The notes under the pieces: model-generated
The model's input: only the letters and a program-made list of their open reading frames with translations
The model's database searches: none
What the model was told of the DNA's origin: nothing
Program-made: the position numbers and the translations under genes
Assembly (NCBI RefSeq): GCF_000003815.2
Contig: NC_049997.1
Location: 14,236,067-14,300,066, forward strand
Direction of reading: 5' to 3'
From: Branchiostoma floridae
Lineage: Eukaryota > Chordata > Leptocardii > Amphioxiformes > Branchiostomatidae
DNA: 64,000 nucleotides
Part shown: piece after piece, positions 13,401 to 46,400 of the stretch
Numbering within the stretch: the first letter of the stretch is position 1
Layout: each line of letters starts with the position of its first letter

Positions 13401-16400
13401 CCACCATGAGTCTGTCTATCCCAGAGTGGTAGTCACTAAAGCCGAGCCAGGCCAGCTTCAGGGTCGGAGTTCCGCTGTTGTCGTAGGTCATCCAGCTGTC
13501 CCTGTGCCTGGTCAGCCTGGCAGCGTGGTCAGTATTGACCGCAAAGTGTCCGGTTAAAGGCTTCGAGGAGTCCACCTGTTTGTAGACAAATCACAGAAAT
13601 GGTTAGGTGTATCTACATCTCTTAGCACGGGCGGAAAATTTCCAACTATTATAAGTTGTCAGTGTCCAAATACCCTACTTGTTATTTCTATAAGACAAGA
13701 AATTATTGGGGGTGGGGTGGCCCACGCAGTCTCGAACCTAGTCTCGTGATCTCGCGAGACTAGGTCGTTCCGTGATCAAGATGTACTGAACAGACATTGA
13801 AAATTCGGAGGTTCGTGATTTACGTGTTTTTAAGAGTCACTGATGGACGAATTACTCTTTAGCCAATTAATGCAGTATTTAGCGTAATTGTACCAATGGC
13901 AAGAGTACATTTGTTGGATTGTCCTTACCAAGAGAGACCCAGTCTGTGTTTGTGTGCAGAGTCTTGCGTTGTTACATCCGATCACCTTTGCAACATAGTT
14001 GTTCCCATCATCCAGTGCGAGCTCAGTGAACGTGTACTCGTACACGGTGCCATTGAGCTGAAAACGAAATATGATTAAAATCAAAACCATTGGTAAAATA
14101 CCACTCCTTGTTCCTTGATGAAGCAGTGTACTTTGCCTGATGTTACAAATGTTACATATTTGCGTAGTGATTCAAAATGTGACAAACCTCAGTGTCACGG
14201 ATTTGACATACATGCTCAGAAAGGTAAAACAGGTCTACTTTGAATCGTAATGCTTGTGTTGATGCATGATACTTTCTTGATAGATGATAGTGCAAGTCGT
14301 TTTCTTCTTTTAAGTGCAGACAATTGGCGCCTGATGCTAACACAGGAAGCTCCCAATAATTAAACTAGACCACAGGCGTAATGTGCCCATCTGAATGGAC
14401 GAATGCAGCCCCAAATACGTTACGTTACGTTGCATTGCCTTCTTCTTCTTCTACCGGTTTCGTGTCAACTTCAATTAGCTGAAGACTTTGACTCGGTGGG
14501 GGAAGGGGTACTTTTATTGTGGAGGGGGTCTCCGCTTAGTTTTGTGATTTGTGGGGGCGGTGAGTACCCACAGCAGTGGTTGAGACTTACAAGTTATCAA
14601 GGCATTCCTAAATGCCTGAAGAGTCTTCGCTTTGACTACGTGTTCTGGAGGGTGGTTCCAGTCTCTAACCGTTATTGGGAAGGACGAGTTTAAATGGTAG
14701 CCTGCACGCGGAAAAGGAGAGTGGAAGGCTGGACTGATTCCCGTACGTGGTGGGATTGGCAGTCCCTAACTAGCTTTGTTCGAACACTCTTTGCCTAGTT
14801 CCCAAATTTTTGGTCCTAAATGGTAGTACATGTAACTCAAAGGTAGGATGGTGACGTTTCACACACCTTTATGTTGGAGACCTCCAATTACGTTATGTTG
14901 CATTTTTCGAACCCTAGTTCCCAAATTCTGGGTCCCAAATACTAGGTAGGATTGTGACCCTTCACACACCTTTATGTTGGCGACCTCCGCCCCGTGATGG
15001 TTGGACAGCGAGACGTGCTGATCCACCACCAGACTCTCGCTGTCGTCAAACCGCCATCTTATCTTCACAGCAGACCGCCATGTTTGTGTTCCACTCACAA
15101 GGGAACCATGGGTGTGGTCAAAGTACACTGCTGTCGTCACTGTCGGAGCAGAGGTGTCTACACGGAAACCTGTTACAAATGTTACCAAATAAATATGTTT
15201 AACAACATAAAGTTTTAGTTCGATACTAGAAGGTTCAGTGTAAATGGTCTTTCTGCAACTAAGCAAATTCATTTTACAAGGAATGTGTGAACGTTACCGT
15301 GCCAAAAAATGATACTATGATTACATAGTATAATTACATTCTCGACAATCAAAACATGTTTCACAATCATTCAGTATAAAAATCCTAATAGTAATACCCC
15401 AAACAAGGACTTCTGAATGATTATAACCATGATTTTACCATTGAATGATTAGTAGATGTATCTACCCGGAATCCTTCCATAGGAACAAAATGTCCTATTT
15501 TGATATTGTATTTTGTGTATCAATCTTATCTAAATGGAGCCACTTTTGTTTGCAGATGGATCAAAGGAATGCTGTCCCCAACACGGGGTAACATTGCCTC
15601 TTTTTAATAAAGAAAGATTATAAATGAGTACATCGTCATCCTCAGAATGGTTTAACATGTTTACCATTGGACGTGGTCTCCACAGACATCCCCACATGGT
15701 TGTAGGCCTTCACAGTAATGTAGATCATGGTGTTGACAGGGAGGGAGAGTCCTGTCTTTACAGCTACATTCGTCAGGTGGAGCTGTTGAGCAACACGACA
15801 CATACATGTAGAGAGAGGAACACGACTAATAAATGTAGATCACAGCAACACATTGATGTAATCATTTTAGCATCTAAGCATCCTAGCTGGTCACGCGCAG
15901 GCATTAAGGAAATGCAATACAAAGACTACGAACATTGAACGCACTAGTAATATGGGGGTATACAAACCTGTGTCACTCCCACGATGTTACTTCCACCCGG
16001 TGTGGTCCCAGCGCGCCACTCATAGTGGGACAGCCCAGAGTGGGGGTCGTTGAACCCGTACCAGTGAGCAGCCAAACTGCTTCTGTGGTACAACAATAAG
16101 GTATTCTGATGATAATTCCGCAGCATACTTAAGGATACACTTTAATCAGATGTCTAAAGTAGTTATAAGTACATGACAATTGTATTCTGTAGACCGTACT
16201 TACGTGGATGCCTGGTATGAGGCCTCCTCTCCCTGGGCCCCATCCAGGACTCTCCCAGCCACCGGCGGGGAGTCGTCGGGGATAACTCCATCAGACGACA
16301 CCGTGGTGCAGAGGTCGGCAGCGTTACACGCTGTCACCGTCACGTAGTACGTCTCTCCAGGGGTCAGCTGAAGGGCGTCCACACTTGCAGCTGTTGAACG

Positions 16401-19400
16401 AAAAACGTTAATAAGAAATGGCACCACTCCTGAGGCGTCGCCAAAATGTTACACTTACAGAAATACTAAAAAATATTGAGGGTTTCAAGTAAATGTAAGT
16501 AGTACCTTGAAGAAGCCCAATGTTTTGTGGAGCAGGAATGCTACCACTCCTGAGGCTTCGCCAAAAAGTACACTTGCAGCCATACTAAAAAGAGTGTGAG
16601 TTTTAAGTAAATGTTAGTAGTACCTTGAAGAAGCCCAACGTTCTGTGGAGCAAGAATGTCGCTACACCCAGCACACACCCCGACGCTCCACGTGTAGCTC
16701 ACAATGGCAGAATGGGGGTCGTAAAAACCGTCCCAGTGGGCATGGATGGCGGTGACGTAATCTTGATAGTCTATGTCGTTCACGGTGCCAATTGTGGGTC
16801 CGTCATACACGTTCCCAGCCTCAGGTGGGGACGTCTCAACAACCACGGCCCAGGAAGTCGCCATAGTCATCAGCCCGGCTCCATTGTAAGCCTGTAGACC
16901 ATCAAATGAGATGTTATTGGCAATGTTGACATGCCCAAAAAGCCCCATTTTCTATAAGATTATACTGGCAATGACAATGATCTTTATTTGCATGTTCTTG
17001 CCCATATGGGCTAAATGCAGTAGTTACATAAAACGTTTCTATAAAGAATCTTTACAGTGTCAATGGGAGAGATATAACAGCTAAGGCTATGCTACACTAT
17101 AGCTCTGTACTTGAACAGAGACGGGGGCCGGTGCCAACTTCCAACCACCTCAAGTATGCAACCACCTCAAGTAAGCAATAGGGTCAACCGATACACTTAA
17201 TAAGAGTTGTCAAACTCTTGATGTGTTTGTCATACTTTCAAAATAAGTTCTATCCTTCTTCATAATAAGATAATTATATTCTTGTATATCTATACATAAC
17301 GTTATTCATACCTTGATGGAGACATAGTATTCATGCCCTTCGTGAAGCTGAAGAGGACTGTTCTCATCAGTCTCTGCCTCCGTCTCCTCCACCCTAGTGA
17401 AGGGGTAGATGTCGGCATGACCAGCCCTGGAGCCGACTGCCCACTCAAAGAACGAAACCCCACTCTCTGTGTCGTAGAACACACCCTCCCAGCTGTGAAA
17501 ATTAATAGACCATGATGTCAACATTCATTACCATGTAATCTGTGTTATGTATACATTGACAACGATTGGTGTACATTCTATTCTACAAACCTTATAGATA
17601 CGTACATGTATAGAGCCGAGATATCAACAGCGTGACTGGGATAACAGCAGGGGGCCACGGTCCCGTTTTAAAGGTCGTAAATCTATAGAATAAGCCCTCT
17701 CACAGAGATCAGGATGCTTGTCCGGTGACAGGAATCTCTAGGTAATATGTCAAAGGTAAAGGCCCCGAAAAAAAGAAACAAAACCTGCCTGGATATTGTT
17801 ATGCAAATCGAAACAATGGTCGAGGCATGGACTGTTTTCGGGGGCTTTACCTAATTGACATATTACCTGAATTCCTGTCGACGCACATGCGTTCTGATCT
17901 CTGTGAAAGGACTTATTTTCAAACAGTCTTTGACAGAACCAACAGCTGCTATGGCTTAAGGATAGCTTTATCCAGAACATGACATATATGAGGATGAACG
18001 GAACTGAACTGAACTGATAACATGACAGCTGGATTTTGTACAGAATATGTACGCGACTATCTCAGGAACGCCCTCAGTTTATGTGACGAGGCCCTTACCT
18101 TGCAGTCACAGATGCCGAACTGAAGTGAAAACTGTCTCCGACATTGATATGTGTGTCTGACTTCTGTGGTGGCGTGGTATCAACGGTCACTCTCTGTGAA
18201 CCTTTGGTTGTTGACAGTCCGACAAAGTCCACAGCTGAGGAGACAAAATTGTGAAAAAACTCAACAGAACGTCAAGCATGACATGATGATATAAGCAGGT
18301 CCTCCGTTCCGAGTCCGCTTGTGCAGCGGAATTGTGGGCAATATGTCAAAGGTGAAGGCCCATGAGACATAATCAAATCACGTCTGGACATTGTTTTGCA
18401 AATCGAGAAAATGGTCCAGACGAGTACTGTTTATAAGTCAGGGTCTTCACCCTTGACATTACCCACAATTCCTGTAGCTGCACATGCGTACTCAGAACCG
18501 TGAACATACGTATTGATAACCAATCACTCCAAGCAAACAATTTTATTTCATATATAAAGAATCAATAGTTTTAAAAAATGGCTAAACACTAATTTTGTCC
18601 CAAGTACTCAATGATTACAGGTGTTTTACGTTACGGTTTACATGAGTGGGCTTGGAATGGCACCTAATTTCTCCTACCTGTAACAGTGGCGTAGTACGAC
18701 CACCCGTGCTGCAGTCTAACCCCGTGCAGTAGAACATGATCTGTAACTCCCACATCTGTCCAGGCTTGCACGTCGTTTCCTCCAGCAATTGTACCTAGTT
18801 AGAGACGGTGTAATTTTCAGCTTAGTGCCCAGTAATTGATGGGAGAGGAAACACAACGACGAAAGACAATGGAGAACAATGACGATCGCCCTCAGCACAT
18901 TTAGCTAGCTATAGGAATGCAATGATTGTTATGATAATTAGACCGCTGGGCGAACCTAAGTGCTTCATGAGTCGGAATTCGAAAACAAGGTAGCTCATAA
19001 TACTGAAATTATGATGGTCATGTCTAAATGATTTAGCATGTGTCACTGTTTTAATGTTTATCATAGTCTAGCTCACTCACTAGCTCGGTGATTTCGATGG
19101 TGGTTATAGAACCAGAGCTTACATGTATGTTACAATATACACATCGTTTGAGATATTCCATCTATTGCGTACCGATAGCGTACTCGTAACGTTGAATTCC
19201 TGAGTGGTGCATAGAGACGTCATGTTCTTCAACATCGACGAATCCGTCCCATTGTACATAGAGCTCTGTACTAGACACCTACAAAAAATAAGCCATGGAT
19301 GAACACGTTGTTTAAATTCATGTTTTACTTAATATAATATTCGAACACAGTAGAATCTCCTGGACATTCTGTGGATTTTGACAAGGTGAAAACACTGGAT

Positions 19401-22400
19401 TCCGAACAGGATTACTTTCTAAGGGGATTGAACGAGGCCATTTACATCACTGCCCATAAACCTTCCCTTAACCGAGATGGGGGCCGATACCGACTTCCAA
19501 GCACCTTTGACCCATTGCTGATGTCACACCTTCGGTCTGGATGTGTGACATCTTTGAGTCATTTCAACTTGAAAAGGTTCAGAGGACTGATCTAAAGCTT
19601 GTTGGTAAGAGCTTTGTTATCTTCGCCAGCGAAGATTATAAGATTGCTTACTTGGGTCTGTATGTAGGTCAACAGCATATAAGTCGAGAAATTGTGGATG
19701 GAACTTTTTGATTTTTTGTAGGTGTGTAGCGGTTGTCGAAAGGCATGCCTAGTTTGAAAATGGTTTACCTGGCGTTTTCCTACGGTACAGCAGCGACCTT
19801 TGTATTTTTTCGAGGTTTGTTTCGAGAAGCATAACTCAAAATGCAGCTGGGCGATTTCTACGATATTTGGCAGGTGTGTAGCGGTTGTGTAAAGGATTGT
19901 CATGTGCGAGAATGGTTTAGCTAGCTTTTACCTATGGTGCTGTAGCTGGCTTTGTATGTAATTGCGTTTGTCTGTTAACACGATAACTCGAGATGTTCTA
20001 CATGGATGCTAATGATATTTTGTTGATAGGTAGGAGACACAGAAAGGAAGGTCAAGTTCGATAATGGGCCTCCTAGCGACTTGTTTTGGTACTGCAAGTG
20101 AGCGTCAAAGCTTGCGCCTAAATTTTCCAGAAGTGCCATGTTCATGATTTTTAAGTGGTGGATAGCTGTTGGGACTAGGAGTGAATGGTGTAATTTTGGG
20201 CCCCCTAGCAGCTTGTTTGGAACTGCAGTGGGTCTTATAGTTTGTAACTTTTAAAAAGGATAACTGCAGAGGGGATTGATGGATATTCTTTGCTTTTGGT
20301 AGGTAGGTACTTAGGGTGATTATCAACATAATGAGATGCTAATTATGTAAATTGCGATCTACTTAATATAATTACTTTGGGATTCTTATCATGGAGAGAA
20401 CCACATCCCTTACAAAAGTGGTGTGCAGTGCAACATGACACTGGCACCATTGTCACCCTAGTCCAGCACTAATGTGTGGACCATTAATCATCATTTATCA
20501 TTCAAGCCCTTCAGACAGAAGCAGAAGCCTGATCTCCTTTCCCTGACAAGGGCCAGTCACACCAAATTAACCCCCTGCCCTCAGTCTCCGGGTCTTAGCA
20601 CAGACAAATCAAAGGTGGAGCAGAACTAATCGTCATGCCATGGCAGGGTCTTACACGCCCGCCCGTTTGAGGCATAAGACATGGTCACGTAAAAAAAGAT
20701 TAAAACATCGCGGTGGGCCAAATCAGGCTGTCAAAGATGCCAACGTAATCCTCATGAGTTGTTCGATCGCATACAGTACGCTTAAGGTCTCATTGATGAG
20801 TTTCTTCTTTCCATAGACCTGTATGTTATAATTCGTGTTTTTCATGGGCGCGTTCATAATGACGCTACGTAAAATTTTAGCAGATTTTTCATTCTATGTT
20901 GAGCACAATTACCCTATATCGTGGGAAAAAATTGTCAACGTAAACTATACGTAGGAACTTTTTTTATAGCAATTACAAACGACGATTAGTCAATCCCCAC
21001 AAAAGGCACTTTTTTCGCTTTGAGTGTACAACCGCACCACTCAGAACCCAAGGCTGTGTACCTCCGACCTAGCGCGCGGATGCAAAACTTTACCTGCTAA
21101 TATCTTCAGTTAAAAACAAGCTTTCACCAATCTAACTTTTGAGATCAGTTCCGCTGGCTAAAAGGGAATTTCTCACCGCTAAAAGCACGCGTCCATGCAG
21201 CCGTTTATTTTTTGGCTCGGATCTAGTTTAGGGTGCCCACTCGCGGAGTAATACATCAATGAGACCTTAATGATTCAAATACTATTTCGGGATGAGATTT
21301 GAAGAGTCAAAGTTGGCCTTCAAACTGGCTCTTTTTGCCTGATTTTGGCCTCGATTTCACACTGCATGGGGGTTTCCGTGCAACCGATTACGACAATATC
21401 ATATACTTCCGGGTTGTACGAGTGCGGTCATAGAACGCGGGTGGTATCGTATCTTGTCTCGGTTTGTGCTAGGTTGTAGAGGAGGATCTAAGTAAGGCTT
21501 ATGAATATACTAATACTTGGAGATTAGCAATTACTATGCCTGTCAATCAGCTATTTTGTCTTTGCGGGGCTATGAATGGGGGGATCTGAGTAGCCTGACG
21601 TGATAGCCAGGCCAGGTAGACTGTGTAAAATACCTCTGACTTAACTCGCGATTGCAAAACTTTACTTACTATTTTCATGAGATGGACACAAACATTCACC
21701 AAGGCGGGGCCGTAACAATCCTTACGTATGACCCTTAGGTAACCCTTAGATGACCTATTATCTAATATATAGGCCAGTCACTCAAAGTTTGTTTATTATT
21801 TCTTTTTTTACGAAAAGACTGCAATGTACATTTTGTAGAGTGAAATCTTATATAAAACTAAAGACCTAGCCTAACCTAGCCTAACTTAAGACCTTACATC
21901 CAGCTTTGCTACCGGTATATCAACATCTCATATTAAGCTGTATTTGGTGCTTATCCGGCCCATTATAGCCATAATTATATTTCAGCCATACATAGTATGG
22001 TGAAATATATTGTATTCGTAATGTTTCTTTCTTTCTTTCTTTCTTTCTCCTGTCAAATCTTCAAAGTGATTCATCTCCGCCGTTCCTGGACCGAATGACC
22101 TGAAATTCGGCACAGGGGTAGAGTGGGCCAATACCTTGATGCTTTTTTCCCATTTTTTTCATATCTGCCTCTAAAATGATTTTATTGAGATTTTTTGGTC
22201 AATTTTAGACCAAAACTGTATATTTTGGCCCCTGTACTCTGGTATTACAACCAAAGGAGCTGAAATTTGACAGAGATGTGCCTTGATAATGCCCCCATAT
22301 AAATTCGATAACACTTTTGGTGTACAGTACAACAAAATGCTTATTTTTGCGATTTTTTGACCAATTTTTGACCAAAAAAGGACACTTTTGGCCCCTGTAC

Positions 22401-25400
22401 CCTGGAATTACAACCAAATGAGCTCAAATTTGACAGAGATGTGCCTTGATAATGCCCCCATATAAATTCAATAACACTTTTGGTGTACAGTACAACAAAA
22501 TGCTTATTTTTGCGATTTTTTGACCAATTTTTGACCAAAAAAGGACACTTTTGGCTCCTGTACCTTGGTATTGCAACCGAATGAGCTGAAATTTGACACA
22601 GATGTGCCTTGATAATCCTTTCATATAAATTCAATAACACTTTTGGTGTACAGTACAACAAAATGCTTATTTTTGCGATTTTTGGCCAATTTTTGACCAA
22701 AAAAGGACACTTTTGGCTCCTGTACCCTGGTATTACAATTAAATGACCTGAAATTTGGTATAGATAGGCATTAGATACTTGGTAACAAGATTCAAGTAAA
22801 ATTTTTGACATAAACAACTTTAAAATGATTAATTTTGGCACTTTTCTGAGGGGAAATTTGTTTTCTTTTGGCCTCCTGACGTGACCTTCCGTGACCCCGC
22901 ACAGAGCCACACCTGTGCGCGTCAGCCGGAGAGTTAATTGAATCAAAGACCTAGCCAATCAGCGAAGAGGAGGCCAAAGGCTAATTAATATTCATAAGCG
23001 GGGCCTCATGATCCCGTATATAGCAGTGTTCCCGCCAGGGGGAGCGAAGCCCGCCTAAGGCTCTCGCATTTTAGACTATTCAGAAGGCTTTATATTGTAT
23101 CAGTTCTTAGGGGCATATCTATGATAATCGCAGCAGTCACTTAACTTCTCTTCAGGAGTTTAGCGTAACACTATTTCTGGTCAAACCGTCAAAGGCAACT
23201 AAAAACAAACTTTAACGTTACTGAGTTCAACAGCATTTATAACTTGTTATCCGAAGTTGAAACGCTAGCGATGGTATTTTCGCTGCGCTGTTAGCTCCGT
23301 GCGACTGTTGTTGACGGTCTTATAACGGTATATTTTGCACCCCTGTACCCTGGTTTGAGTAACATTTGGTATAGATAGGCATAAGATAGTTGGTAAAATG
23401 ATCCAAGTAAAATTTTTGGCATAAAGTACTGTAAAAGGCTTAATTACAGCACTTTTTTTAGGGGAAATTGGTTTTCTTTCGTTCTCCATGCCATGACCTT
23501 TCGGACGTTCACCCCACAGAGCCGACATCTGCACCTGCGTCTAGCCGGCAGGAAGAGTTAATTCAATTAATGGTTCAGCCAATCAGCGAAGAGGAAGGCG
23601 AAGGCTAATTAATATTCATAAGCGGGACCACACAATACGTTAACTTGAAGACTCAGGCCGTACAGACTTCTCGCCAGGATTTTTTCAAAGCGTCGGACAG
23701 GGGTCCGGGGGCCGCCGAATGTCCCTGGCGGGGTCCAGGGGCAGGGCCACTGTGGGGGGGACCCAGGTGGGCGAAGCCCCCCGGAAGCTCTTGCATTTTA
23801 GACTATTGAGAAGGCTTCTTTTATCAGTTTTTTTAGGGCCATATCTACGATAATCGTAGCAGTCACTTACTTCTCTTCAGCAGTTTGACTTTAAAATATT
23901 TCGGGTCAAAGCTTCAAAGACAACTAAAACCTCATAAACAACAAACTTTACTTAGCTCAACATTATACAAAAATATTGTACGGGTTGCCATCCTTAGTTG
24001 AAGCGCTTATTTATAGCGCTAGTATCTTCGCTGCGCCGTTAGCCGCCGTGCGACTTTTGTTGACGGTCTGATATCCCTACGTCGCCGCCTTGCTGATATT
24101 CCCACGGACATGTTTCAAGAAAAATACCCAGCAAAAAACGCTGTTCTGCGTCAAATTCTATTCTATAACACATGTGGGACTCAGTGTTACAGTCTAAATT
24201 TTTTGTAGAAGCACCGCTGTAGGAAAGAAGGTCCAAGCAATGTAAAACATCACGTAGCATGAAGTTCGCTGTCAACTGGCACACAGCACATGACTGTTTG
24301 AAACTCTAAGTCTAATCAACAGCCGTGTTTGATTGATAGCCGGCGGTCCTTTGATGAAGTCGGCGAAAGGTGCGTTAGTTAGAAAATCTGCGTTTAGTTT
24401 TGATACGTAATTATAAGTTAGACAGTGGCGAGAATGATTATTTTCTCATCAATATTTCTCTTCAGAATTATTTGAACTTAATTGTACATCTAAATAATTG
24501 GCTTACCTGTGCAATGTTTATATGATTAATGATCAGTGTACTGAAATCATGTGTAACGTATGGCTCCTAGTCAATAGATCAGCATTTTCTCTATAGTGAC
24601 CACCTGTCTGTAGTGGCCACATTTCTATCACTGGACTGGAACTTGCGAAAACTGCTGTATTTTCTCCAGAGCAAATGTATGTGTTCCTAGTGCTGTTGTT
24701 GTTTGACATAAACTTTGAACATTTAAATTGTAAGTAACTTTAAACTGCCAGAGTTTCAGCCCAATAAAACACTCTCAGCGCCAGGGTATGAACAGACTGA
24801 CCAGACAGACGAAAATAAATCCTCGAACAAGGTTCAATCGTATCTTCCGGGTCTGGCAGGAAGTTGTTAAACTAAAATAAGAATAGGCTCGATGGCTGAT
24901 TGCATACAAAGTAAAACAGTTTAACAGTTTTACAGCTTGAAGAAAACAAACGCTCCTACAGTACCTGCACCTGCTTGATAATTATTAAATCGTATGCCCT
25001 ACTTGAATAAAAAAAGTTCACTGCAATAATAAATGTACCCACATCACAAGGAGCTTATACTTTTTTAAACTTACACCTAGTTATCGTACTGAAAATTGTT
25101 AATGACATTACATGAAGTCATTCAACAATTTTCAGTCATGATGAAAATTTTCTGAATGGAAGGTGTGATTATTGTCATTTTCTGAAAAATAGAAGCAAGC
25201 TCTGTTTTTACCTGGAATCAATTCACAATACCAGTCCACTTTGGGGGATAATGTACTGTTAAGAGGATGTTCCATTTTTGCGCAAGGATGATTTGGAACA
25301 GTCCAATGTTGCGTGGGAAGGGGTATGGCTGAAATATGCTGTATTTGCTCTTAAGCAAATGTCGGCCTTTCTAGTTACATACATTAATCATTCAAAAACA

Positions 25401-28400
25401 ACGACCTTCGATAAAGAATGTTTATTTGGCGAAGATGTGTGTTCGAGGAACTCTAGTTTTGTGCATGGATTTGAAGTGTAAAATTGTATCACAATCAAAT
25501 ACTGTAGCATTGCATGCACTACGGTTCTAACAAAGTTTTTGCATACATGTAAACTGCAAGATTGAGAAATAAGTGATTGGCAGAAGTACCTGGTAATTGG
25601 ATTTGTCATTGGAGCCAATCCAGACGTCGGCAGCATCGGCGTTGGGCGGAGTCACATCTACCGTCACCCCGCTGCTACAGACGGCCGTCTCTGGAAGGGT
25701 CTCCACCCACCTCTCGTACGTTATGGACGTCTCCTCTGCATGGATGCACACGATGTACCGCTTGTTCTGTTCCAGGCTCAGACCTTCCACGTTGATGTAT
25801 TCCTATGTGAAGAGTCATAATTTTAGTATCATGAACTAATGCACAGGTAACATATTTCATGACGCATGACATAGATAAGGAATAGCGACATAGTGGAACA
25901 GGCTGGGTAGCTACTGACAAAAAAAATCGAGGTTCTGCTGCAGTACCAAGGTCACACACCAGGGGATAAAAATCGACCCCGACCATCGTCTTTCCAACAC
26001 GTACCCATGTACCAAATATCATTACATTCCATCCAGAGGTTCTAGAGTTATACTGACCACAAATATCCGGAAACACAGACAGACACGCACACACAGAGAC
26101 ACACCGAAAACTATACCTCCATTTTTCATGGAGGTAATATTACTAATTTTGATGGTACATACACAATAGTTCCCGTAACGTACGAGGGATTATGCACTTT
26201 GTCACGGTAGAAACTGCATTCCTCTCACTGTAGTGCCAACTAGCGGAACCAGTCATTATTGTCCAGGAAAAGGTAACAGAAAGACCACCAAAATGTTGGG
26301 AAGTAAATTTCGCACAGTGATCCGTACTGTCTGTACTTACACTCGTAGTTCTTCCACACTGTATCATATCCTGGTGGTCACACGGGTTGGGAACACTAAG
26401 GTGGTGTCCGGCCATGGCGGATAGACTGGACCCTGTCTTATCCTCTAGTACGGCCCACTCGTACTTCCGGTGACGTAATGTCGGCCAAACGGCAGACAGC
26501 ATGGTTGTCTCATTGGTGTAGTCGATGTCATACTCGGTCCAGTCTGCGTTCAACTCCAGTGTGATGTTAGCTGTAAAATGATTTTTAATATGAATATTCT
26601 TAGATATAGAATAGAAAGTATTGGGGTTTCCAGAGTATTTGAAATTAGAAGCCGCTTAATTGCACACCCAATTTGCCAGTGTATTTCTTGCAATTATCCA
26701 TGATTCGTGTGGTGGAGCAAGTTATCTAGTTGGACCGCACCAGTCTGGGATTCCGGGATCCCGTGCACTTAACAGAAGTGTGCGGCGATCCGTTCTGCAA
26801 TTAGCTGGCTTCTACTGTACTATACTACAGACTCCGCCCATGTGGCGTCGCCAAAAAGAAGACTGTCTAGAAGGGTATGCGGTACTCACGGCGAGTGTCT
26901 ATGACTGTTGAGTAGTTCAGGCCTCTGTTGGTGCTGGTTTCTTCGCACTGGACGATCTCACTGGACACAGATGCCGACAGCCCCGTGTGGGCGTGTCCTC
27001 TCACAACCAGACTCAGACACTTGGTCAGATCACGTGGCAGTCCATCAACAGAGAAGGAAATCTGTGGAGGAATAAGAAAGACAATTACAGATGGTAGACA
27101 TGACCCCTTTGACCTTGCTGCTTTTTGGCTACTACCGTAACGATTCCGACACACAAAAATAGCAGCAGTTATAATGTATGACGTTTGAGTTTTGCATATT
27201 GAGACTCCTAGAACTAGAAAGGCCGACATTTGCTTAAGAGCAAATACAGCATATTTCAGCCATACCCCTTCCCACGCAACATTGGACTGTTCCAAATCAC
27301 CCCTGCGCAAAAATGGAACATCCTCTTAACAGTACATTATCCCCCAAAGTGGACTGGTATTGTGAATTGATTCCAGGTAAAAACAGAGCTTGCTTCTATT
27401 TTTCAGAAAATGACGATAATCACACTTTCCATTCAGAAAATTTTCATCATGACTGAAAATTGTTGAATGACTTCATGTAATGTCATTAACAATTTTCAGT
27501 ACGATAACTAGGTGTAAGTTTAAAAAAAGTATAAGCTCCTTGTGATGTGGGTACATTCATTATTGCAGTGAAATTTTTTTTATTCAAGTAGGGCATACGA
27601 TTTAATAATTATCAAGCAGGTGCAGGTACTGTAGGAGCGTTTGTTTTCTTCAAGCTGTAAAACTGTTAAACTGTTTTACTTTGTATGCAATCAGCCATCG
27701 AGCCTATTATTATTTTAGTTTAACAACTTCCTGCCAGACCCGGAAGATACGATTGAACCTTGTTCGAGGATTTATTTTCGTCTGTCTGGTCAGTCTGTTC
27801 ATACCCTCGAGGCTGGCGCTGAGAGTGTTTTATTGGGCTGAAACTCTGGCAGTTTAAAGTTACTTACAATTTAAATGTTCAAAGTTTATGTCAAACAACA
27901 ACAGCACTAGGAAATGTGGCCACTATAGACAGGTGGTCACTATAGAGAAAATGCTGATCTATTGACTAGGAGCCATACGTTACACATGATCATTAATCAT
28001 ATAAACATTGCACAGGTAAGCCAATTGTTTAGATGTACAATTAAGTTCAAATAATTCTGAAGAGAAATATTGATGAGAAAATAATCATTCTCGCCACTGT
28101 CTAACTTATAATTACGTATCAAAACTAAACGCAGATTTTCTAACTAACGCACCTTTCGCCGACTTCATCAAAGGACCGCCGGCTATCAATCAAACACGGC
28201 TGTTGATAAGACTTAGAGTTTCAAACAGCCATGTGCTGTGTGCCAGTTGACAGCGAACTTCATGCTACGTGATGTTTAACATTGCTTGGACCTTCTTTCC
28301 TACAGCGGTGCTTCTACAAAATATTTAGACTGTAACACTGAGTCCCACATGTTTTATAGAATAGAATTTGACGCAGAACAGCGTTTTTTGCTGGGTATTT

Positions 28401-31400
28401 TTCTTGAAACATGTTCGTGGGAATATCAGCGAGGCGGCGACGTAGGGATATCAGACCGTCAACAAAAGTCGCACGGCGGCTAACGGCGCATCGAAGATAC
28501 TAGCGCTATAAATAAGCGCTTCAACTAAGGATGGCAACCCGTACAATATTTTTGTATACTGTTGAGCTAAGTAAAGTTTGTTGTTTATGAGGTTTTAGTT
28601 GTCTTTGAAGCTTTGACCCGAAATATTTTAAAGTCAAACTGCTGAAGAGAATTAAGTGACTGTTACGATTATCGTAGATATGGCCCTAAAAAAACTGATA
28701 AAAGAAGCCTTCTCAATAGTCTAAAATGCAAGAGCTTCCGGGGGGGCTTCGCTCCCCCTGGCGGGAACACTGCTATATACGGGATCATGAGGCCCCGCTT
28801 ATGAATATTAATTAGCCTTTGGCCTCCTCTTCGCTGATTGGCTAGGTCTTTGATTCAATCAACTCTCCGGCTGACGCGCACAGGTGTGGCTCTGTGCGGG
28901 GTCACGGAAGGTCACGTCAGGAGGCCAAAAGAAAACAAATTTCCCCTCAGAAAAGTGCCAAAATTAATCATTTTAAAGTTGTTTATGTCAAAAATTTTAC
29001 TTGAATCTTGTTACCAAGTATCTAATGCCTATCTATACCAAATTTCAGGTCATTTAATTGTAATACCAGGGTACAGGAGCCAAAAGTGTCCTTTTTTGGT
29101 CAAAAATTGGCCAAAAATCGCAAAAAATAAGCCTTTTGTTGCACTGTACACCAAAAGTGTTATTGAATTTATATGAAGGTATTATCAAGGCACATCTGTG
29201 TCAAATTTCAGCTCATTCGGTTGCAATAGCAAGGTATAGGAGCCAAAAGTGTCCTTTTTTGGTCAAAAATTGGTAAAAAAATCGCAAAAATAAGCATTTT
29301 GTTGTACTGTACACCAAAAGTGTTATTGAATTTATATGGGGGCATTATCAAGGCACATCTCTGTCAAATTTCAGCTCATTTGGTTGTAATACCAGGGTAC
29401 AGGGGCCAAAAGTGTCCTTTTTTGGTCAAAAATTGGTCAAAAAATCGCAAAAATAAGCATTTTGTTGTACTGTACACCAAAAGTGTTATCGAATTTATAT
29501 GGGGGCATTATCAAGGCACATCTCTGTCAAATTTCAGCTCATTTGGTTGTAATACCAGGGTACAGGGGCCAAAATATACAGTTTTGGTCTAAAATTGACC
29601 AAAAAAATCTCAATAAAATCATTTTAGAGGCAGATATGAAAAAACTGAGAAAAAAGCATCAAGGTATTGGCCCATTCTACCCCTGTGCCAAATTTCAGGT
29701 CATTCGGTCCAGGAACGGCGGAGATGAATCACTTTGAAGATTTGACAGGAGAAAGAAGAAAGAAAGAAAGAAAGAAACATTACGAATACAATATATTTCA
29801 CCATACTATGTATGGCTGAAATATAATCACACAAACACATATTCAGCCACTCGGGTAGACACAGACAGAAATTATATTTCACTCACTTGGGGTGAAGTAA
29901 TAGATATATGTGTTTTAGCGATAAGAACTATACAGTCTTTTGGAAGTAAAACAGGCTTACATACACCTTTACAAGTTTCTCTCTCACACAGTCAAAAACA
30001 AGAAACAAATTTTGTCAACTAAAGGCACGTAGTACTAGTACTAATGTACTATCCCAAGCTCGCACAAATGTGTGGCCCAATGCTTTAGAAAAGGAGATAG
30101 GCATCGACCTAGATGGGCATCGACCTGTACTACGAAAGGTGTGGTAAGGATTGCAAGTTCAAGGGACCAGACAAGACAAGACAAGATTCTTATCAAGTTA
30201 TTAGCACTAACTGTTGTTTCATTGGAAGATGTTGGCGCGACTGTTGCCCAGTCAGTCAGTAATTTTCCATTCTCCGAGTCATCTGCGACGGCCCAGTCAT
30301 AGAAGTTCATGACGTCATCAGTTGGGTAGTACAGGTCACTGAACTTGTCAAAGATGACGTCAGCGCTCCTTGTGCCCGAGTCTGGATACGGACTGGTGAC
30401 GTGAAGTGTTCCGGGAAGTGGTGGGTCAGGAGCCACCAGGAATCCTGAACTGTAGACTGGAGGGGGTATATCATGATAAAGTCTATTGGTGACGAAAAGC
30501 ATTTAATCGTTAATTAGAAATCAGGACACAGCTTATGGTAGTATTACCCATATACTTAAACACATGTCGGAAGGGCAAAACAATCCTAAAAACGTTATTT
30601 ACTGTCGTCAAAGGATCAGAATCATCAAGAAATATTTTCACCAACGATCATCATCGTGTTTTCCGTGATAAATAGGATAAATACGAAGACCAACAATAAA
30701 GTTTGAACTAACGTAAGATGACATATCAGCACCAAGGACAGTGCCCTATTGTTTTATCATTCCTATAACCTATAGCTTGTTAAGAACAATAACTTTAGAA
30801 TGCCTGAACAAAATGTCAGAATACACTCAATGGACTAGACACAAGTCTTATCGAACTGGGACGGAGGCTGCTACAGACTACCAAACATTCTCTTATTTTC
30901 CATGACGAAACTCAAAATACAGCAGTACCTGGAGCAAAACAGCCAGCCTGATGACAGAACAAGACTTTAGACTTATAGGTGACATCGGGAGAGAGGTACA
31001 GGTCTTGATTTACAGCCATCCCGTGGGACGCCATCCCGAGGTTCACATAGTCCTGCACCACAGTCTCCTCCCCCTCTACCTCCTGCACGATGGACCATTG
31101 GACGTGGGTCACGTGAGCTTGATTGGCAGGTGGGATGGACCAATGGGCAGCCACCGCTGTCTTTGATGTCTGGTAGATCGACGGCGATGTGTCATAGCAG
31201 GCAGAGCGAATTGTCTGAAACCAAAACAAACGCAAAAGTTTACTTTCATTAAATGATATTTGAAAGGTTATCAACAATGTTTTCCATCAATAATTTGAAA
31301 TCCACATTTATTGACAATCCAACAGGAAACACGTACCTGTATTTGATATATTTCATCGTGCTGATCTGAAATGTAACACAACAGATTGTTAATTTGTTGA

Positions 31401-34400
31401 AATAAAATGTTTGAATGTTGATGTAATTGTTAGTATCCTAAAGATACTATCAAAAAATAATCATATCCAGAACCATGACCCTTAGCATACAATGGATACG
31501 ATATTCATCCGCAAACATTATGTGTAGAGAATATTTTGTGTATATAACTTATTTTCTTCTGTCGTTATGAATTCAAATAAAAACTTACCAGAACACTCCT
31601 GTCCGTCGATGACCTCTGCCCCCTGAAGAGCGTCTCCGTCTTGTAGAACCGTTATTCCATCTGAGGTGACAGTTGTGTCCCCGATGCTGTTACTGGCCTT
31701 AACTGTGATGTAATAGGTCTGGAAAGGTTAAACAGTAACAAATATTCAGTCTTACCTACATTTGAATATCTCCATTCAACTTTATTCATTTGTACAATTT
31801 AGTAACCCAAATGACGAAGTGAATGTAATGTACCAAGCCCAATGAACTGCCACACCATTCGTACGTCGTCCTAGTATGATAACATTTTTACCGTGGCATC
31901 GTCTATCATCCTTCAGTCGGTGATGTAGTAGGACTGCTGGGTAATGTAGCAACTATTCAGTTTTTCATACCTTTACGTATCCTATGTCCTATGTAACTTC
32001 CTCCTATCAGTAACCCAAACAGATATCTAAAGAAATGTACCAATGAAACAACACATCGATATTTTAGTACAGTATCCTCCTTCGCAGCATGCAGAACTCT
32101 GGCTGCATTATTTGGGGGGGGGGGCTGTGGTTGCTGATTTGTGACTTTAGACATAAACTGACTTAAAGGTTTTCTGATGTCTAGAGAGGCAGAGAGGCTG
32201 GTTTTTCTCAGGTATACTGCCTCTCCCGACATTAGAGACCCTAAGCCCATATTGAAAATTGCAACATCCCCCCTTCCCCAGAAAAACAGCGCTGCTAGGA
32301 GTTACCCTCTGCTCACGTCACACTTTCGGAAGGTGACGTATTCTGAACATCCGGGTCCCCAGTTATCCATCCTGCAGAAAGCCAAGGAACTGATAGAATA
32401 TTTGGTGAGTTTCATGTATCAAACTCAAACACAACCTCTTCTTTGTGAACATCTCTCCCACCTGGAAGGATGTCAGGCTCAGTCCATCCCTGCTCCACTC
32501 CGTGTTTTGTCCAACAGAAGTAAAGCCGACCACATCCGTGGCACCTGGTGACGTCCCGGCCCCCACCTGGTACGAGATGTCCTGATGTTCGTGTAGGAAG
32601 CCGGACCAGCGGGCCGATAGCGTGGTGGTGGTCGTCTGGAAGTCTGCGTCGGCCGACTGAAAAAGATGTAGACTTGTTGGCAAAGATTGCATTTCTTACT
32701 TCGACTTCGACTTTAATATATCCTCCTGTCTCCATTCAGATCGGTTTGGGGCAAGGATTTCCGCATCGCAGATTGCATTGCAGTTTTCAAATGTACTGTA
32801 CAAGCCCTTCCGCCCAAATCTAATCCTGCAAGCCTCCAGTTACACCATTTTCCTCCTCACATCCTGCCACCATGAACCAGGGCCAGCTAAACAAACCGAA
32901 AGTAAAACCTTAAGAATGGTAAAAACGTAAAATAATCTCGTAACATCATTTGATGTTTAGCTCCTGCGATATATCATTAGGACTTTTGACCTATTTCCCT
33001 ACATATCTGCAATGTGTACAATTTGAAATGTTGTTCCATACATGCGGGACCAACTTTGGACCCGAGCCAAGCCAACCTTTCTATCCTCCCAACCTACATA
33101 ATCTTCCACCTCACATTCTGTCACTCTTGCAATATTCAAGCAACTATTATCACACAACAAGACAAACACACAGACCAAAAGCAATGCCTCCATTTTCACA
33201 GGTGGTAGGTAAGACACAACTCAAAGACATAGTTTTTCTGTCACCCACCTGAAGATAGTCGTAAACAGGAGCCTGTGGGTCAGGGTTGATGTCCTCTACC
33301 ACACCAGCAGTCGGCTCGCCCTCGTAATGGACGTACGGAGAGGACGTGGCCACGGTGGACAGTCCAACAAAGTCCGTGGCCTTGACAGACACGTAGTATG
33401 AATGCGTTCCGTGTAGACCCCACTGTAGAGGAAAGAAAATATCTCCCTAAGGCCACAGCAAGTAAATTTTATGGATGACATCCGCGCGTTCATTAATTTT
33501 CGCCTCATTTTAGAAAAAAAGAAATGTTTTCTTTTTAAAAATGGTCAACATGACGAGAAAATACCAAAATGGGAAAATATGTTGTGTTGTAGCCTAATAT
33601 TGGACTTGTGTAGGGGTGACAGGAGCGAGGAGCCATGACTGTAATTGTAAAAATGAAACTGGTTTCCATATGGAAGCTTTGAGTGTAGTTGCCAACCTGG
33701 CAACCTGATAACGTTACCACGTCTTCCACACACTACACTACACCATAGTTCACTTCTTGAATACAGGAATGAATGATTTGTTTTCTGTACATAGTGGATA
33801 CATATGTGGTTTTCTAGAATACCTGTAGGCTGTCCCTGTGAATGGCTGTGCACCCGGAAGCGCCCCCACACGGACCCACGCTAGTTAAGGCTGTGTACTC
33901 CAAGATGTCCTCTCTATTAGCCTCGTGACCTAACCAATGACAATCGACATAATCTAGCATTAGTTCCATTCATAAGGTAGTACTCAATTCTTTTAACTCT
34001 CAATCACCATTATATTGCCATGACTATCGTTACGATTCATAGTATTTGTGTATTATGTTGAGGCGTGCTATAGCACAATCGGTGACATCAAGTAATGAGT
34101 TCTTAGCTCTGCAATCGATGGTATTTTTTCTACCAACTTTTTTTAACCTTCTGGAAAAGTTTAACTGCATGTTCCGACACGAAAATTAGACTAACCCAAA
34201 ATTTCGACCAAACTCTTTGTCAGGGAATGGCAAGCCGGTATATATGTAGTTTGCGGCCCACCAAGTGTTTCTGTTGAGCCGATAAAATTGCTTGTATTGA
34301 GGATCTAGTGAAGCTTTAATGTACATTTGTATGACAGTATGTAACATTTCGTCTTGGTTTAGCTCACGTTTTTGGTACCTTTTTCTGGACCAACAAAGTC

Positions 34401-37400
34401 AATGGCGCCAAAAGGTTTTGGGCGTGTGAGCTTCGTGTTGAAAATTACCGTCCAACTTACAGTCTACCAACACAGATAAACTTTCAACTTTACGCTAACC
34501 CGCCTGTTTCCTCAATTGTAGCTTGAAATTGAAATCTTCTACACATTGTGACCTAGTGGCCTGGATGCGATCCCTTCCTTCTAGGAAGGTAGTCGAAAGG
34601 TTTTTACTGAAACCTCTGCAGAAAAAAGGTTATCTTACCAACTGCGTACTCGTAGGTGAGCAAATCGGTATCCTCGTCGTCGGAAAACCCGTTAGCAGGC
34701 CATCGTGCCACGAGGTAGTCATCCTCCAGCGCCAATGTCACCTGGCCTGAGAACGTAGGGGGCCTTGCATCAACCACAATCGGCCCAATAGTCTGAAAAC
34801 AGAAATGATACACTCTTAACGTTAATGTCATAATTTATTCATTGAGTGAAAACGTATGAAGGGCATTGACATTTAAACAGATGCATACCGTGTAATTATA
34901 ATAAGAACACACATCATGACATTGACTCGCAGTTGAACAAACTTCTTTAACAAAGCAAAGGGTTCAGAAGAGGACATAGTTCACGTCAGACTAGGCTAAC
35001 TGAATGTTTGTAACGAATCATTCAATGGACAGTAAGGTCAATAGACTAAACGCTAGGTACCTTTGTGGTAGATAGGCCTGCTCTGTTTGTCGCAGTGACA
35101 CCGAGGTAGAATTCTTGTCCCTCGCCCAGACCAGAATGTCTTTAGTGGGGGAAAATTCATTAGTTATGAAAATCAGCAACAGTCTAAACAGTCAAGATCT
35201 ACGCAATTGTTAAACCTACGTTTTACACATCGAGAAAAGGATAGATCCGAAAAGATCCGTTAAGTCCATGAAAAAAGTTCATACTCTTCTTACCTAGTCT
35301 TGAAGACGGTGTGTCCGTGAGTTGAGGTGAGAGGCATGATGTCTGGACTGGAGGCACCAGATTCAGTAGAACTCAGGCCGACCTGGTAGTCATTTATTTG
35401 ACTCTCAACGTCAGAACCGTTCCAGTAAACAGCCAACTGGGACAAAAGAGGTTACAGTGATTAATCAATTTAGATTCGCATAGGGTTGCCAGGAGGGGGC
35501 AAAACGTAAAGTAATGTTGAACCTTATTTTACCATCACAAAAATAACTGTTAATTCATTGCTATATTATGATGAGTAATGGTTCCAAAATCATTCCCTGT
35601 GGAACCCCCTTGCAAACCCCAACTTAGTTACTTACAGTTGATTAGAAAGTAGTGTTATGCGATCAATTACTTAGAAACTTTGCATGCAGTAAGCCTTCGG
35701 GAATGATTTTGCAAATAAAAAAAAACTAACTATCTACACAAAAGGACTGGCCGTATACTCACATGCTTGTCAACAACCATGAAAAATGGAGATCCAAGAG
35801 CACCATCTGATTCACATCCCGCAGACGTAGCCATCCTAACGGTTTCTGGGTCGTCATTCAAATCTGCGTTGACGTTTACCATTGGACGATCGGTGAAGAT
35901 AGCGGGGTCGGCAACCTGTCTGGCCGCTGAGCTGTAAATGCACAACACAACACAATCACAGCAACGCACCTTTAGATACTCCTCTGATTGCCAAACGGCT
36001 ACCAAGGGACGAAGGCCCACAACGACACCTTTCGTTAACTACTCAAACCGTGCCTTATGTCCTTATGGGTCTTCGTACTTATGATAGCACGGGTTTGGTA
36101 AAAGATAAGATTGAGTTCTACTACATGTACGTGATAGTGATGCAAAAATAGAAAAGGAACCAAAAATTGCACCTGCACGTAGACGATGGGCCGTTCACGG
36201 CGACCTTTCTGAGTTGGTCATCCACCATCCAAACGTTCCCGCCGCCATCTTTGATCGCTCCCGTCCTTGCCCGGATATTCTCTATGACGATATTGGATAT
36301 GGACGGCGGAGACGTGTCGTACAGGATTCCGTCAGAACACACCGGTTCGGAGGCAGACAGGGCGCGATTAAAGGCGACCACGGTGCAGTAGTACGTGCCG
36401 GGGGAGGAGGCCGTGAAGCTGTGTTGTAGCTCGGTGGTCGTCTTTTCTGTTGCCTGGAAAATATTGCACATGACGATTACTCCTCAAGGCGAAATTCTGC
36501 TCAGAGACATGCTTATAATTGAAAAATTCTACGAACTATATCAGTGAATCTATCTACATGTTTCAAGTCTCTAGTTAAGATCCTCGATTCACAGCTAGCC
36601 GGAATTCTTTGCAAGAGGAGTGAAGGAGGCTGTGTACATCCGCGCCCACCGTCCGTCGCTGAGACGGAGGACGAAATAGGTTATCTGGCATTTACGACAC
36701 TCTGCTGCAGTCACGTGTCTCTGTCTGACGTCACGTTCCGGAAGCTACAGTAGACGGGTCCATTCCGGTGGGGTAAGTCCCAATTTATTTGTAGCATTAA
36801 TTACTTAAAGTTTAGTTTATCCACAATGTTATTTACCAACACAGATGAACTTCCATGCTAAGTGTCTAGTGCATGGCATGAATTATATTATGCCTACCGA
36901 ATCAGGCACAGGGATGCCGAAGTCACCCGGGAGCCCGCATCGAGTTCCAAAGAACACTTGGTAGCTCCTGACGCCGCTCTCGTGATCAAAGAATCCTTCC
37001 CAGCTAAAGTGCATGTTTGGATCACTCTGAAATACACATATTACGTACATGTAGCTTTTGAAAACACCTTTCTTAGTGTCACACCTGTTTCTCAGTGTCC
37101 CATTTGACCTCATAATGTCAGATGTTTTTCATTGAAGTTTAACAGCTATGTTATCATCCCTTTTTTATCAGGCAGGTGAGGATAAGTGTTATGATTAATA
37201 GACACTTAAGATTGAAAACATTTGTTTGCTTGTTTGCTTGTTTGTTTGTTTGTATGAAAGGACCGCCTTACCTGAAAGTCAATATCAGCCTGACCGGCAT
37301 AGTTGTCAATGATGTGGCCCGGTTCTGGAGGACTGATGTCGACTGTAATCTGTTAAAACGCACATATATTAGTACTTTAATTTTTCAAACCTCATTCGAC

Positions 37401-43400: not shown

Positions 43401-46400
43401 GCCACAAGTTTGTCCCGTTGGACTGCCGGACACCTGTGGGTACCCCTCGGTGTTCCCCACGAGTAGGTCACGGCGTCTATTTGTTAAGGGTCATAGATTC
43501 ATTTTAAGTCCGATTTAAACCCGGGTCCCGGCCGTGCTCAAATATATACAGGAGCAGCCAGGGATTCCACGGGGCTACCAAGGGCTCACGCCCGAAAGTG
43601 CCCAAACAGCCCGTGAACTGACCGGCAGGGCTCTTCTTCCAACTGGGACCTAAGCCTTAGCTGTGCGTACTCACATCCACTTGGCCCCGGAGGCGGTTCT
43701 TCGCCACGGTCCGTCTGTGAAGTATCGGTTGTGGTTCTGCCCGGTGTCGAAGTCGTGATAGGTGAAGTACCCACCGAGCTTGGCAGAAATCTCTACCTCA
43801 ATCCTGCATACAAGTACAGAACATCAACCGTCTAGTTCCCATACACTGCAATACCTAGATAATAGTGCCAAATGATCAACAAAAAAGTGCGACTTGCTAC
43901 AATTGGCTTTTTTCGTGAAATTTCAAAACTTTCAAAATATTTACAACAGCGCCTCCCTACCACCATAGAGAATAGACGAGGGACGCCATAAGCTTCAATT
44001 ATGACTTCCATCTTGTTCATCCTAGAATTAATGAAGCATACAAAAATTTATTTTGAACTTCAAAAAGCATGAAAGTATCTTAGCCGTATCAAACCTTCCG
44101 AGTCTCTTCTGTCCTCTTCGCAGTATTTGCAGAGAGGACAGAAGAAACTCGAAAGATATATAGTACGGTTCGAAACAAGGCTATGACATTCTTTACTCAC
44201 TCGTCGCCATGGATGATGTTCAGTGAGGTTGCTTGATCGTTGGTACATTGTATGGCAGAGTCCAGGGGAGGGTTACTGTTGCTGAGAGCCATGTCACAGT
44301 TGATGGTACCACCAGTAACGACCTGATCTGTAAAAAGTAAGTGCACGTATATAGTTATGTATTAGTATAAATATTCTTCGATCCATCGTTTGATTTTTTT
44401 TTTACCCTAGCCACGAAGGTTTTGTTTTCGATAGCGTTTTTTATGACCATAACTCGAAAGGCTACAGATGAATTGTTTGATACATGTATGTGATTCTAAT
44501 TAGGTATTGACCTATCAAAAATAGGTTTGGGGGTCAAGCAGCTTTCCTTGGTACTGCAGCAGAACTTCCTTTTTTTTTCTCTCATATTCTGGACATGCAT
44601 TAAGCCTTGAAAGAACATACATAAGTTTAGCCACCTAGCGCCTTTCCTAGAACTGCAGGTATGTTTTTGTTAGAGATATGTTAAACGTGAACAAAAAGTA
44701 CAATCTTGTTTGACAAAAATTGTAACAGAACACACAGGAAGATTGCTGTGAATTGTAGAAAACAAATTTTTTAATCTGAAAAGAGAAGTATGGCCTACTC
44801 TCTAAACAATTCTTCCTAAAGTGATATGTCCTTGTCTTAAGAGCGAATGTCTGTAAGGGTCAAACAATGGTGGCACCGGTCAAAAAATAGATTTGCCTCA
44901 TTTTTTGCACAGTGATAGTACTTGGTACACAACCCCTCAAAATAGCTTTCTTTCTTCTCAGAACCCCTCGTTGCCATGGCAACAGGCCAAAGAAGTTTGG
45001 GGGCCATTTTGCCGGATTTGGGCATGTCAAAAACATGAAAATTGGCCAACTTAAGGGCACTATCACTTAACAATGCTTTAATTAAACAACAAAGGCAGAA
45101 TATGCTGATCAGAGCAATGCCTAAACTTGTATGAAATAGCAGTAAAGTTAATCTCCTGTAAATTCTAAGGCCCTGGGCAGCCTGAATACAATACACTGTT
45201 TTCAGGTTGTAAAGAATCTGAAATTTTGCCCAACTTCAAAGCACTGAAAGTCCATAAGTATAAAATATTTTCGCTTGCAATTTACTACAAATAATAACCT
45301 ACTATAGGGCTATTAGATGAATGCTAGCAAAGTTCGGGTTCTTGTTTTGTTGCTATGCAATCGTCCGTCGAAGTGGGTCAAATTTCATGATTTTGATAAT
45401 ATGTCATTTTATGCTCTCTTTAAACAATCATAAGTCCCATACCAAAGTTGCTCTGCAATTAAAATTCACATGGATTATAAACCAATGTATTGTCTATCAA
45501 ATGCATGTTTGTAAAGTTCGGGTTCTTGTTTCGTTGCTACGTAATTGTCCTTTAAAGTGAGTCATTTTTTATGATTTTGATAAAATACATTATTTTGCAA
45601 TATCTTCGAACAATCATAACTCACAAGCCAAAATTGTTCTGTAACTAGAATTTACCTGAAATGTAAACCAAGATATTGTTTCTCAAGGTCATGCTTGTAA
45701 AGTTTGGGTTCTTGTTTTGTTGCTAAGCAATTGTCCGTTAAAGTGGGTCAATTTTCATGGTTTTGATGATATATCATGTCTCCCAAAAAGGAAGACGTAG
45801 ATAAACGTCATTCGTTGCTTCATTTTGATCTTTACTGTTGATAGATTCGAACAAAGTTAGGTCAAGATGCTGACCTTCATCATCCTCTGCCGTAATTTGA
45901 CGTTAGCCTGTCAAGCTAATTCCCACACAGACAGACTAGCAGACAAACATCAATCGCCGCCAGGAGTTGGCATTTCAGGCAAACCTCAAGAGTACCTACT
46001 AGGTTCGTTCTTGCCCTTGCTTAAAACGAGTATGGTCCATTGAATAGCAGAAACTGAAAAACGCATGTTTTCACATAAATGCTACCGTGAAAAGAAAGAT
46101 GCACAGAGATTTATGATATTCGTTCCAAATATGTATATACATTGTATAAGCTAAGTTTTCAAGAGTCATATTGTGGGGATGCAAACATGTTCAAGACTGT
46201 AGTCATACATCATGCTTAGCAGTAAAACTAGCAGAATGTTTGAAAGTTCAGAGTGGATTAATCTGACATTAAACATAAATATGACATTGTGTAGAATATA
46301 ATCCCTACAAATGATAGCACATTGCTACATCGGTTCTATAAAAACAAAGACTGTGACATGTGTATCACTGTTGTCAAGAACGTGATTTGTGGAAAAGTCA

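Follow-up and report, generated by a model that had tools for sequence, protein, structure and literature searches.

The window analysed here is a 64,000-nucleotide stretch of Branchiostoma floridae DNA (contig NC_049997.1, positions 14,236,067 to 14,300,066), in which a gene on the minus strand carries two large, inverted copies of a repeated element, henceforth referred to as element A, in the introns on either side of three consecutive exons. The three exons, exon 33 (26890-27061, 172 bp), exon 34 (26341-26570, 230 bp) and exon 35 (25590-25802, 213 bp), lie between exon 32 (30212-30456, 245 bp), which was also found in paralogous genes, and exon 36, which starts at 19278 behind the acceptor TTTTTTGTAG and whose match reaches 19171. 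All five are on the minus strand. The exon numbers, including 33-35 for the block, and the residue numbers 1532 and 1738 at its limits are those of the full gene model made in an earlier note on this DNA. Intron 32 measures 3,150 bp and intron 35 measures 6,311 bp in the window. The earlier description of the block as an in-frame three-exon cassette was confirmed: the exons sum to 172 + 230 + 213 = 615 bp, are bordered by GT-AG and have junction phases 0/1/0/0. The seven junctions from 31/32 to 37/38, read from the sequence, have phases 1, 0, 1, 0, 0, 1 and 1, so that 9 of the 21 possible exon blocks across them keep the frame, and frame-keeping is not rare in this part of the gene.

The claim that near-identical copies of an element lie here in opposite orientation was also upheld. 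Two methods aligned 21974-25376 with 29827-27212 as inverted arms, with identities of 95.9% (1,239 bp), 96.5% (865 bp) and 97.7% (702 bp) in the main blocks. The left copy of element A (21976-25375, plus strand, 3,400 bp) is antisense to the gene and is nested in a second element, B, in intron 35; the right copy (27213-29825, minus strand, 2,613 bp) is sense to the gene and lies in intron 32. The distance between arm and outer splice site is about 150 nt in one case and 214 nt in the other. Approximately 720 bp of the left arm are absent from the right arm; in the left arm this segment is bracketed by a pair of direct repeats, 23039-23090 and 23766-23817 (repeat family D6). A further 58 bp, at 24626-24683 in the left arm, are absent from the right arm and from all seven other copies compared.

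Both arms belong to one dispersed family. A search of the window's own genome (513 Mb, 431 contigs) with the final 677 bp of the left arm returned 1,893 candidates, and the best 40, which were scored and include the window's left copy, were all 99-100% identical. A 33-nt piece of the 3' end of A, allowing up to 2 mismatches, occurred 982 + 963 = 1,945 times in the genome, while a reversed-pattern control gave 0 occurrences. The limits of the element were determined from 17 of the 40 scored loci, all of them close matches to the left arm and not a random sample. The 3' key GGCCTTTCTAGT was present in all 17 (18 rows, since one locus holds two), and the base following its CTAGT end was T in 15 of the 18 rows. 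Twelve of the 18 rows also contained the 5' key, preceded in every one of them by T. These end keys and flanking Ts place the limits of A at 21976-25375 and 27213-29825, with the element spanning TATATTTCAGCC...GGCCTTTCTAGT.

The two copies share the same end structure. Both carry an exact 15-nt subterminal inverted repeat, separated from the 5' end by 1 nt and from the 3' end by 38 nt. In the left copy, the first of these repeats, ATATTTCAGCCATAC, is held within the 5' terminal palindrome (21976-22009, plus strand), where the end of the element folds as a hairpin; the second lies in the 3' end (25323-25375, plus strand), which also contains the palindrome ATTTGCTCTTAAGCAAAT 15 nt from the end and terminates in CTAGT. 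The inner 5' part of A is occupied by 163-bp tandem repeats, at 22191-22772 in the left copy (plus strand, repeat families D2 and D3) and at 29024-29616 in the right copy (minus strand, repeat family D1). Full copies measured 2.6-4.3 kb. No long coding frame was detected in the two copies checked, the maximum being 205 codons for the left copy and, for frames wholly inside the right copy, 112 codons, and the longest frame gave three Pfam matches, none of them over the curated cut-offs.

A genome query with the whole spacer between the arms (6,124 candidates) identified the same exons at three further loci, C19:14.35 Mb (L025), C5:1.74 Mb (L026) and C5:2.66 Mb (L027). Exons 32-37 are kept in all three paralogs in the same order, with 75-100% protein identity. 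From the exon coordinates, intron 32 is 869, 491 and 494 bp and intron 35 is 433, 425 and 356 bp in L025, L026 and L027, respectively, and no match to A was found in either intron in any of the three. As judged from these sequences, the exon block is therefore maintained without the arms. Much of the introns is alignable among the paralogous loci in addition to the conserved exons. L025 is inverted and about 85 kb away on the window's contig, and the two C5 paralogs are in opposite orientations 0.9 Mb apart. L027 has an independent A copy of its own (positions 1-2054 of that locus), in the gene-sense direction just ahead of the paralog's exon 31, and the A family has thus struck this gene group more than once.

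Each of the two A copies in the window could be matched to a site that lacks it. The segment immediately left of the left copy (21266-21977) is the dispersed repeat B, with 1,399 candidates genome-wide of which the best 40 were scored and 40 of 40 matched, the window's own included. In all seven B loci inspected, CCATAAT runs straight into TACATAC, whereas in the window TACATAC stands on the far side of the left A copy, which demonstrates that A jumped into B. Element B extends over 19618-25457 on the plus strand (1,960 bp net) in intron 35 and is interrupted by A (21976-25375) and by a third element, C (20786-21265). In the paralog L026, the matching blocks meet at window positions 19620 and 25457, and B is therefore absent there. 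For the right copy, the intron reads through without duplication in both of the aligned C5 paralogs. Both A insertion sites fit a T-T target with no target-site duplication. Element C is about 480 bp long, has terminal inverted repeats beginning TTAAGGTCTCATTGATG, is inserted in B at TTAA and is missing from the same seven B loci; it resembles short TTAA-target (piggyBac-like) elements.

Divergence of the arms was measured over the last 1.44-1.46 kb against the majority of the 17 other copies, with gap columns excluded. The left arm differed from this majority by 0.55% and the right arm by 0.83%, and the arms differed from each other by 1.39%. Within the last 1.46 kb, 8 non-consensus sites were private to the left arm, 12 were private to the right arm and none was shared, which, together with the other differences between the arms, argues against arm-to-arm copying as well as against an assembly fold-back. 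The idea that the arms exchanged sequence by gene conversion or local copying accordingly received no support in the region compared. The separate A-free sites and the A-free paralog introns point to two independent insertions and not to a composite element or a fold-back. Amphioxus heterozygosity is given as 3.2-4.2% in the available part of PMC12500494, and with divergence this low, A copies of this age may well be polymorphic in amphioxus.

The sequences show that both arms belong to one dispersed family, where they end, where they were inserted, what their A-free states look like and that they are independent. The arms can be interpreted with high confidence as two insertions, independent of each other, of a single rolling-circle family of the HINE type that is abundant, non-autonomous and recently active. 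One A copy would have landed at a T-T site in intron 32 and the other, reversed, at a T-T site in B, which was already resident in intron 35, in both cases by rolling-circle transposition that an autonomous element located elsewhere presumably drove. Both the inverted repeat and the frame-keeping block of exons would then be by-products of where the copies landed. It is possible that the two introns also pair in the pre-mRNA, as other inverted intronic transposons can, and so produce some double-stranded RNA, editing, back-splicing or skipping.

For 1,945 copies distributed evenly over 513 Mb, the expected genome-wide number of convergent A pairs whose 3' ends are no more than 1,835 bp apart is about 3.4, and other repeat families add further chance pairs. 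Considered along with the 9 of 21 exon blocks that keep the frame, this expectation means that the arrangement needs no special explanation, and its earlier characterization as unusual was not supported. Among 100 exact A 3' ends listed (contig C1 to part of C3), there were two opposite-strand and four same-strand neighbour pairs within 10 kb, and neither of the opposite-strand pairs was convergent like the pair in the window. Same-strand pairs with 3' ends 2.7-3.3 kb apart were observed at C2:5457490, C2:10796239 and C2:13071540 and are possibly head-to-tail rolling-circle tandems.

On the basis of its structural features, A would be classified as a non-autonomous Helentron-like element of the HINE type, in the Helentron/Helitron2 group, and these features closely match the published description of HINEs. 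HINEs, or DINE-1 elements, are non-autonomous Helentrons (Thomas et al. 2014, PMC4067079). In the sections of that paper available, they are described as having two subterminal inverted repeats, one close to the 5' end and the other 38-60 bp inside the 3' end, which are palindromic in mites, together with a palindrome at about 8-35 bp inside the 3' end. Some of the copies described there contain tandem repeats, and the target is T-rich and is not modified. Element A likewise has subterminal repeats at both ends, a 3' palindrome, tandem repeats and a T-T target without duplication. It differs in that the 5' repeat lies 1 nt from the end, compared with 2-4 nt in the HINEs described there, and in that its full copies of 2.6-4.3 kb contain 163-bp repeats and have no matching autonomous element identified. 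Element B is also HINE-like, on a plan similar to that of A but not identical: its repeat is 10 nt long and lies 21 nt from the 3' end, its 5' end forms a hairpin, and a clear palindrome is lacking at the 3' end.

Two other known groups were compared with A. FoHeli, a Helitron2-type element of Fusarium oxysporum, is portrayed in the accessible text of PMC5148889 as having an asymmetric terminal inverted repeat whose 3' copy lies about 20-50 nt inside the end, as in A, and as sharing hairpin ends and a 5'-terminal T with it. FoHeli differs in being fungal, in including autonomous copies, and in its 3' end sequence and reported target, as far as that text describes them. Canonical Helitrons (Helitron1) resemble A in the 3' palindrome and in CTAG, which A has at the 3' end or one base before it; they differ in that A lacks the 5'-TC start and has inverted terminal repeats. 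Assignment to the canonical group, with its A^T target and 5'-TC start, was rejected, since the base A precedes the 5' end of the element in 6 of 12 rows at best.

Several observations weigh against the interpretation of the arms as young HINE-type insertions. The comparison copies were picked as close to the left arm, so the ages may look too young; one comparison copy was 11% off. After the 3' end of A, 3 of the 18 rows have C or A in place of T. Because the ends of A themselves carry Ts, the cut point is ambiguous by one base, and in the register one base earlier the element would end in CTAG followed by T, as canonical Helitrons do. In that register the base A precedes the element at both window sites, but on a recount it does so in only 6 of 12 rows family-wide, and the element is still without a TC start. 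Finally, no autonomous partner sharing the ends of A was found, the proximity check covering contigs C1-C3. In favour of the interpretation, Helitron Rep domains do occur in this genome, with 79 matches (134 of 134 candidates scored), of which 29 sit in frames of over 1,500 codons, and none of 14 control genomes matched. Among the matches listed, none of the 18 on C1-C3 was within 20 kb of an exact A 3' end, in a comparison with the 100 exact ends listed in which one of the 18 lies beyond the last end. 

A literature search for Branchiostoma together with Helentron returned nothing beyond a fungal paper, and the available portion of an amphioxus transposon paper (PMC5802833) contains no occurrence of Helitron.

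Of the alternatives, an improbable one that nevertheless survives best is that the arms act as a splicing switch, in which the paired introns promote a circular RNA of exons 33-35, their skipping, or both, with a function for the host. In general terms, the earlier note was right that splicing can be affected by inverted repeats in introns. The arms are up to 2.6 kb long and, as described above, lie close to the outer splice sites; two inverted Alus in one intron moved a neighbouring exon to alternative splicing, according to the portion of PMC2533698 consulted; and inverted repeats have been proposed, in the part of PMC4479058 available, to aid back-splicing. The Alu pairs are comparable with A as opposite-orientation transposon copies able to pair in the pre-mRNA, but as presented in PMC2533698 they belong to another transposon class, have much shorter arms and lie together in one intron, whereas the A arms flank three exons. 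Against a switch, inverted repeats are said in PMC4479058, again in the part available, to be insufficient for circular RNA even in mammals, and the arms are young and missing from introns 32 and 35 of the three paralogs in which exons 32-37 are conserved. The six papers matching a literature search for amphioxus with circular RNA and back-splicing name amphioxus once each.

The protein domains encoded around the block also bear on skipping. The earlier note expected a readable product, and this held in that a 32-to-36 skip keeps the frame; the junction, however, may bring together the first halves of two different repeat domains, so that skipping may break a domain. Searches of Pfam with two gene peptides and of the PDB with one returned no families and no matches, respectively. 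Small custom hidden Markov models (HMMs) of the two halves of the repeat domain were run over the exons alongside a shuffled control. Exons 36-37 (first half, 23.6 bits) and exons 37-38 (second half, 34.8 bits) were clearly detected, exon 36 beginning with the first half of a domain. Exon 35, which carries a second half, scored modestly (8.6 and 2.1 bits), while exons 31 and 34 did not rise above the shuffled control (below 0 bits) and nothing was found for exons 32 and 33. Exon 32 was judged by eye to finish in the first half of a domain. With exon 34 at control level and exons 32 and 33 undetected, the domain-register argument is weak for exons 32-34. An Rfam scan of 15000-35000 gave no matches. 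Intron 34 contains another very common repeat (25922-26137, 216 bp), whose listed matches are about 85-88% identical.

Recombination between the arms, which in the earlier note was said to allow inversion of the spacer, is highly improbable as a source of programmed or frequent inversion. Long, near-identical inverted arms only 1.8 kb apart would favour it. In the single assembly examined, however, each A copy keeps the flank pair that is contiguous at its A-free sites (the left and right parts of B for one, the two sides of the intron 32 site for the other), so this assembly contains no net arm-mediated inversion, and the exon order is the same as in all three paralogs.

An assembly artefact, a fold-back or a haplotype join, is less probable still. 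Near-identical inverted arms are a classic assembly trap, but between these there are 1.4% substitutions over the last 1.46 kb as well as the deletion of about 720 bp; they have no private variants in common in that region, and have flanks that are different and biologically sensible; a fold-back was rejected on these grounds. The last alternative, a single large foldback transposon whose long terminal inverted repeats would enclose three exons captured from the host, has a negligible probability and was ruled out by the separate A-free site of each arm, since, even though its outer geometry alone would fit and long-arm elements do occur in this genome (44837-47510, for example), both element ends are present in each arm and the spacer is collinear with three of three paralogs that have no arms there.

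The example at 44837-47510 is a second large inverted repeat in the window, with 941-bp arms of 98.9% identity. Its sequence suggests a single foldback-like element that is bounded by long terminal inverted repeats and has TTAA at its ends. Among the best 40 of 406 candidates for this repeat, plus/minus pairs were seen repeatedly, at spacings of roughly 1.7-3.2 kb and in most cases of about 2.4 kb.

Since the young insertion may be polymorphic, the locus could serve as a natural test of the effect of long intronic inverted repeats on splicing. It is conceivable, if rather doubtful, that sense and antisense copies of a young A in one pre-mRNA form a very long, near-perfect duplex that both loops out exons 33-35, as a circle or in a skipped form, and gives rise, as a hairpin, to small RNAs or editing aimed at the roughly 1,945 A copies in the genome. 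If the left A copy is still polymorphic, alleles with and without it would provide a natural on/off test within one animal. The result is also a caution that a transposon-rich genome gives large inverted repeats around frame-keeping exon blocks by chance. For the element family itself, the locus offers cleanly resolved insertion sites of a high-copy, T-T-targeting group.

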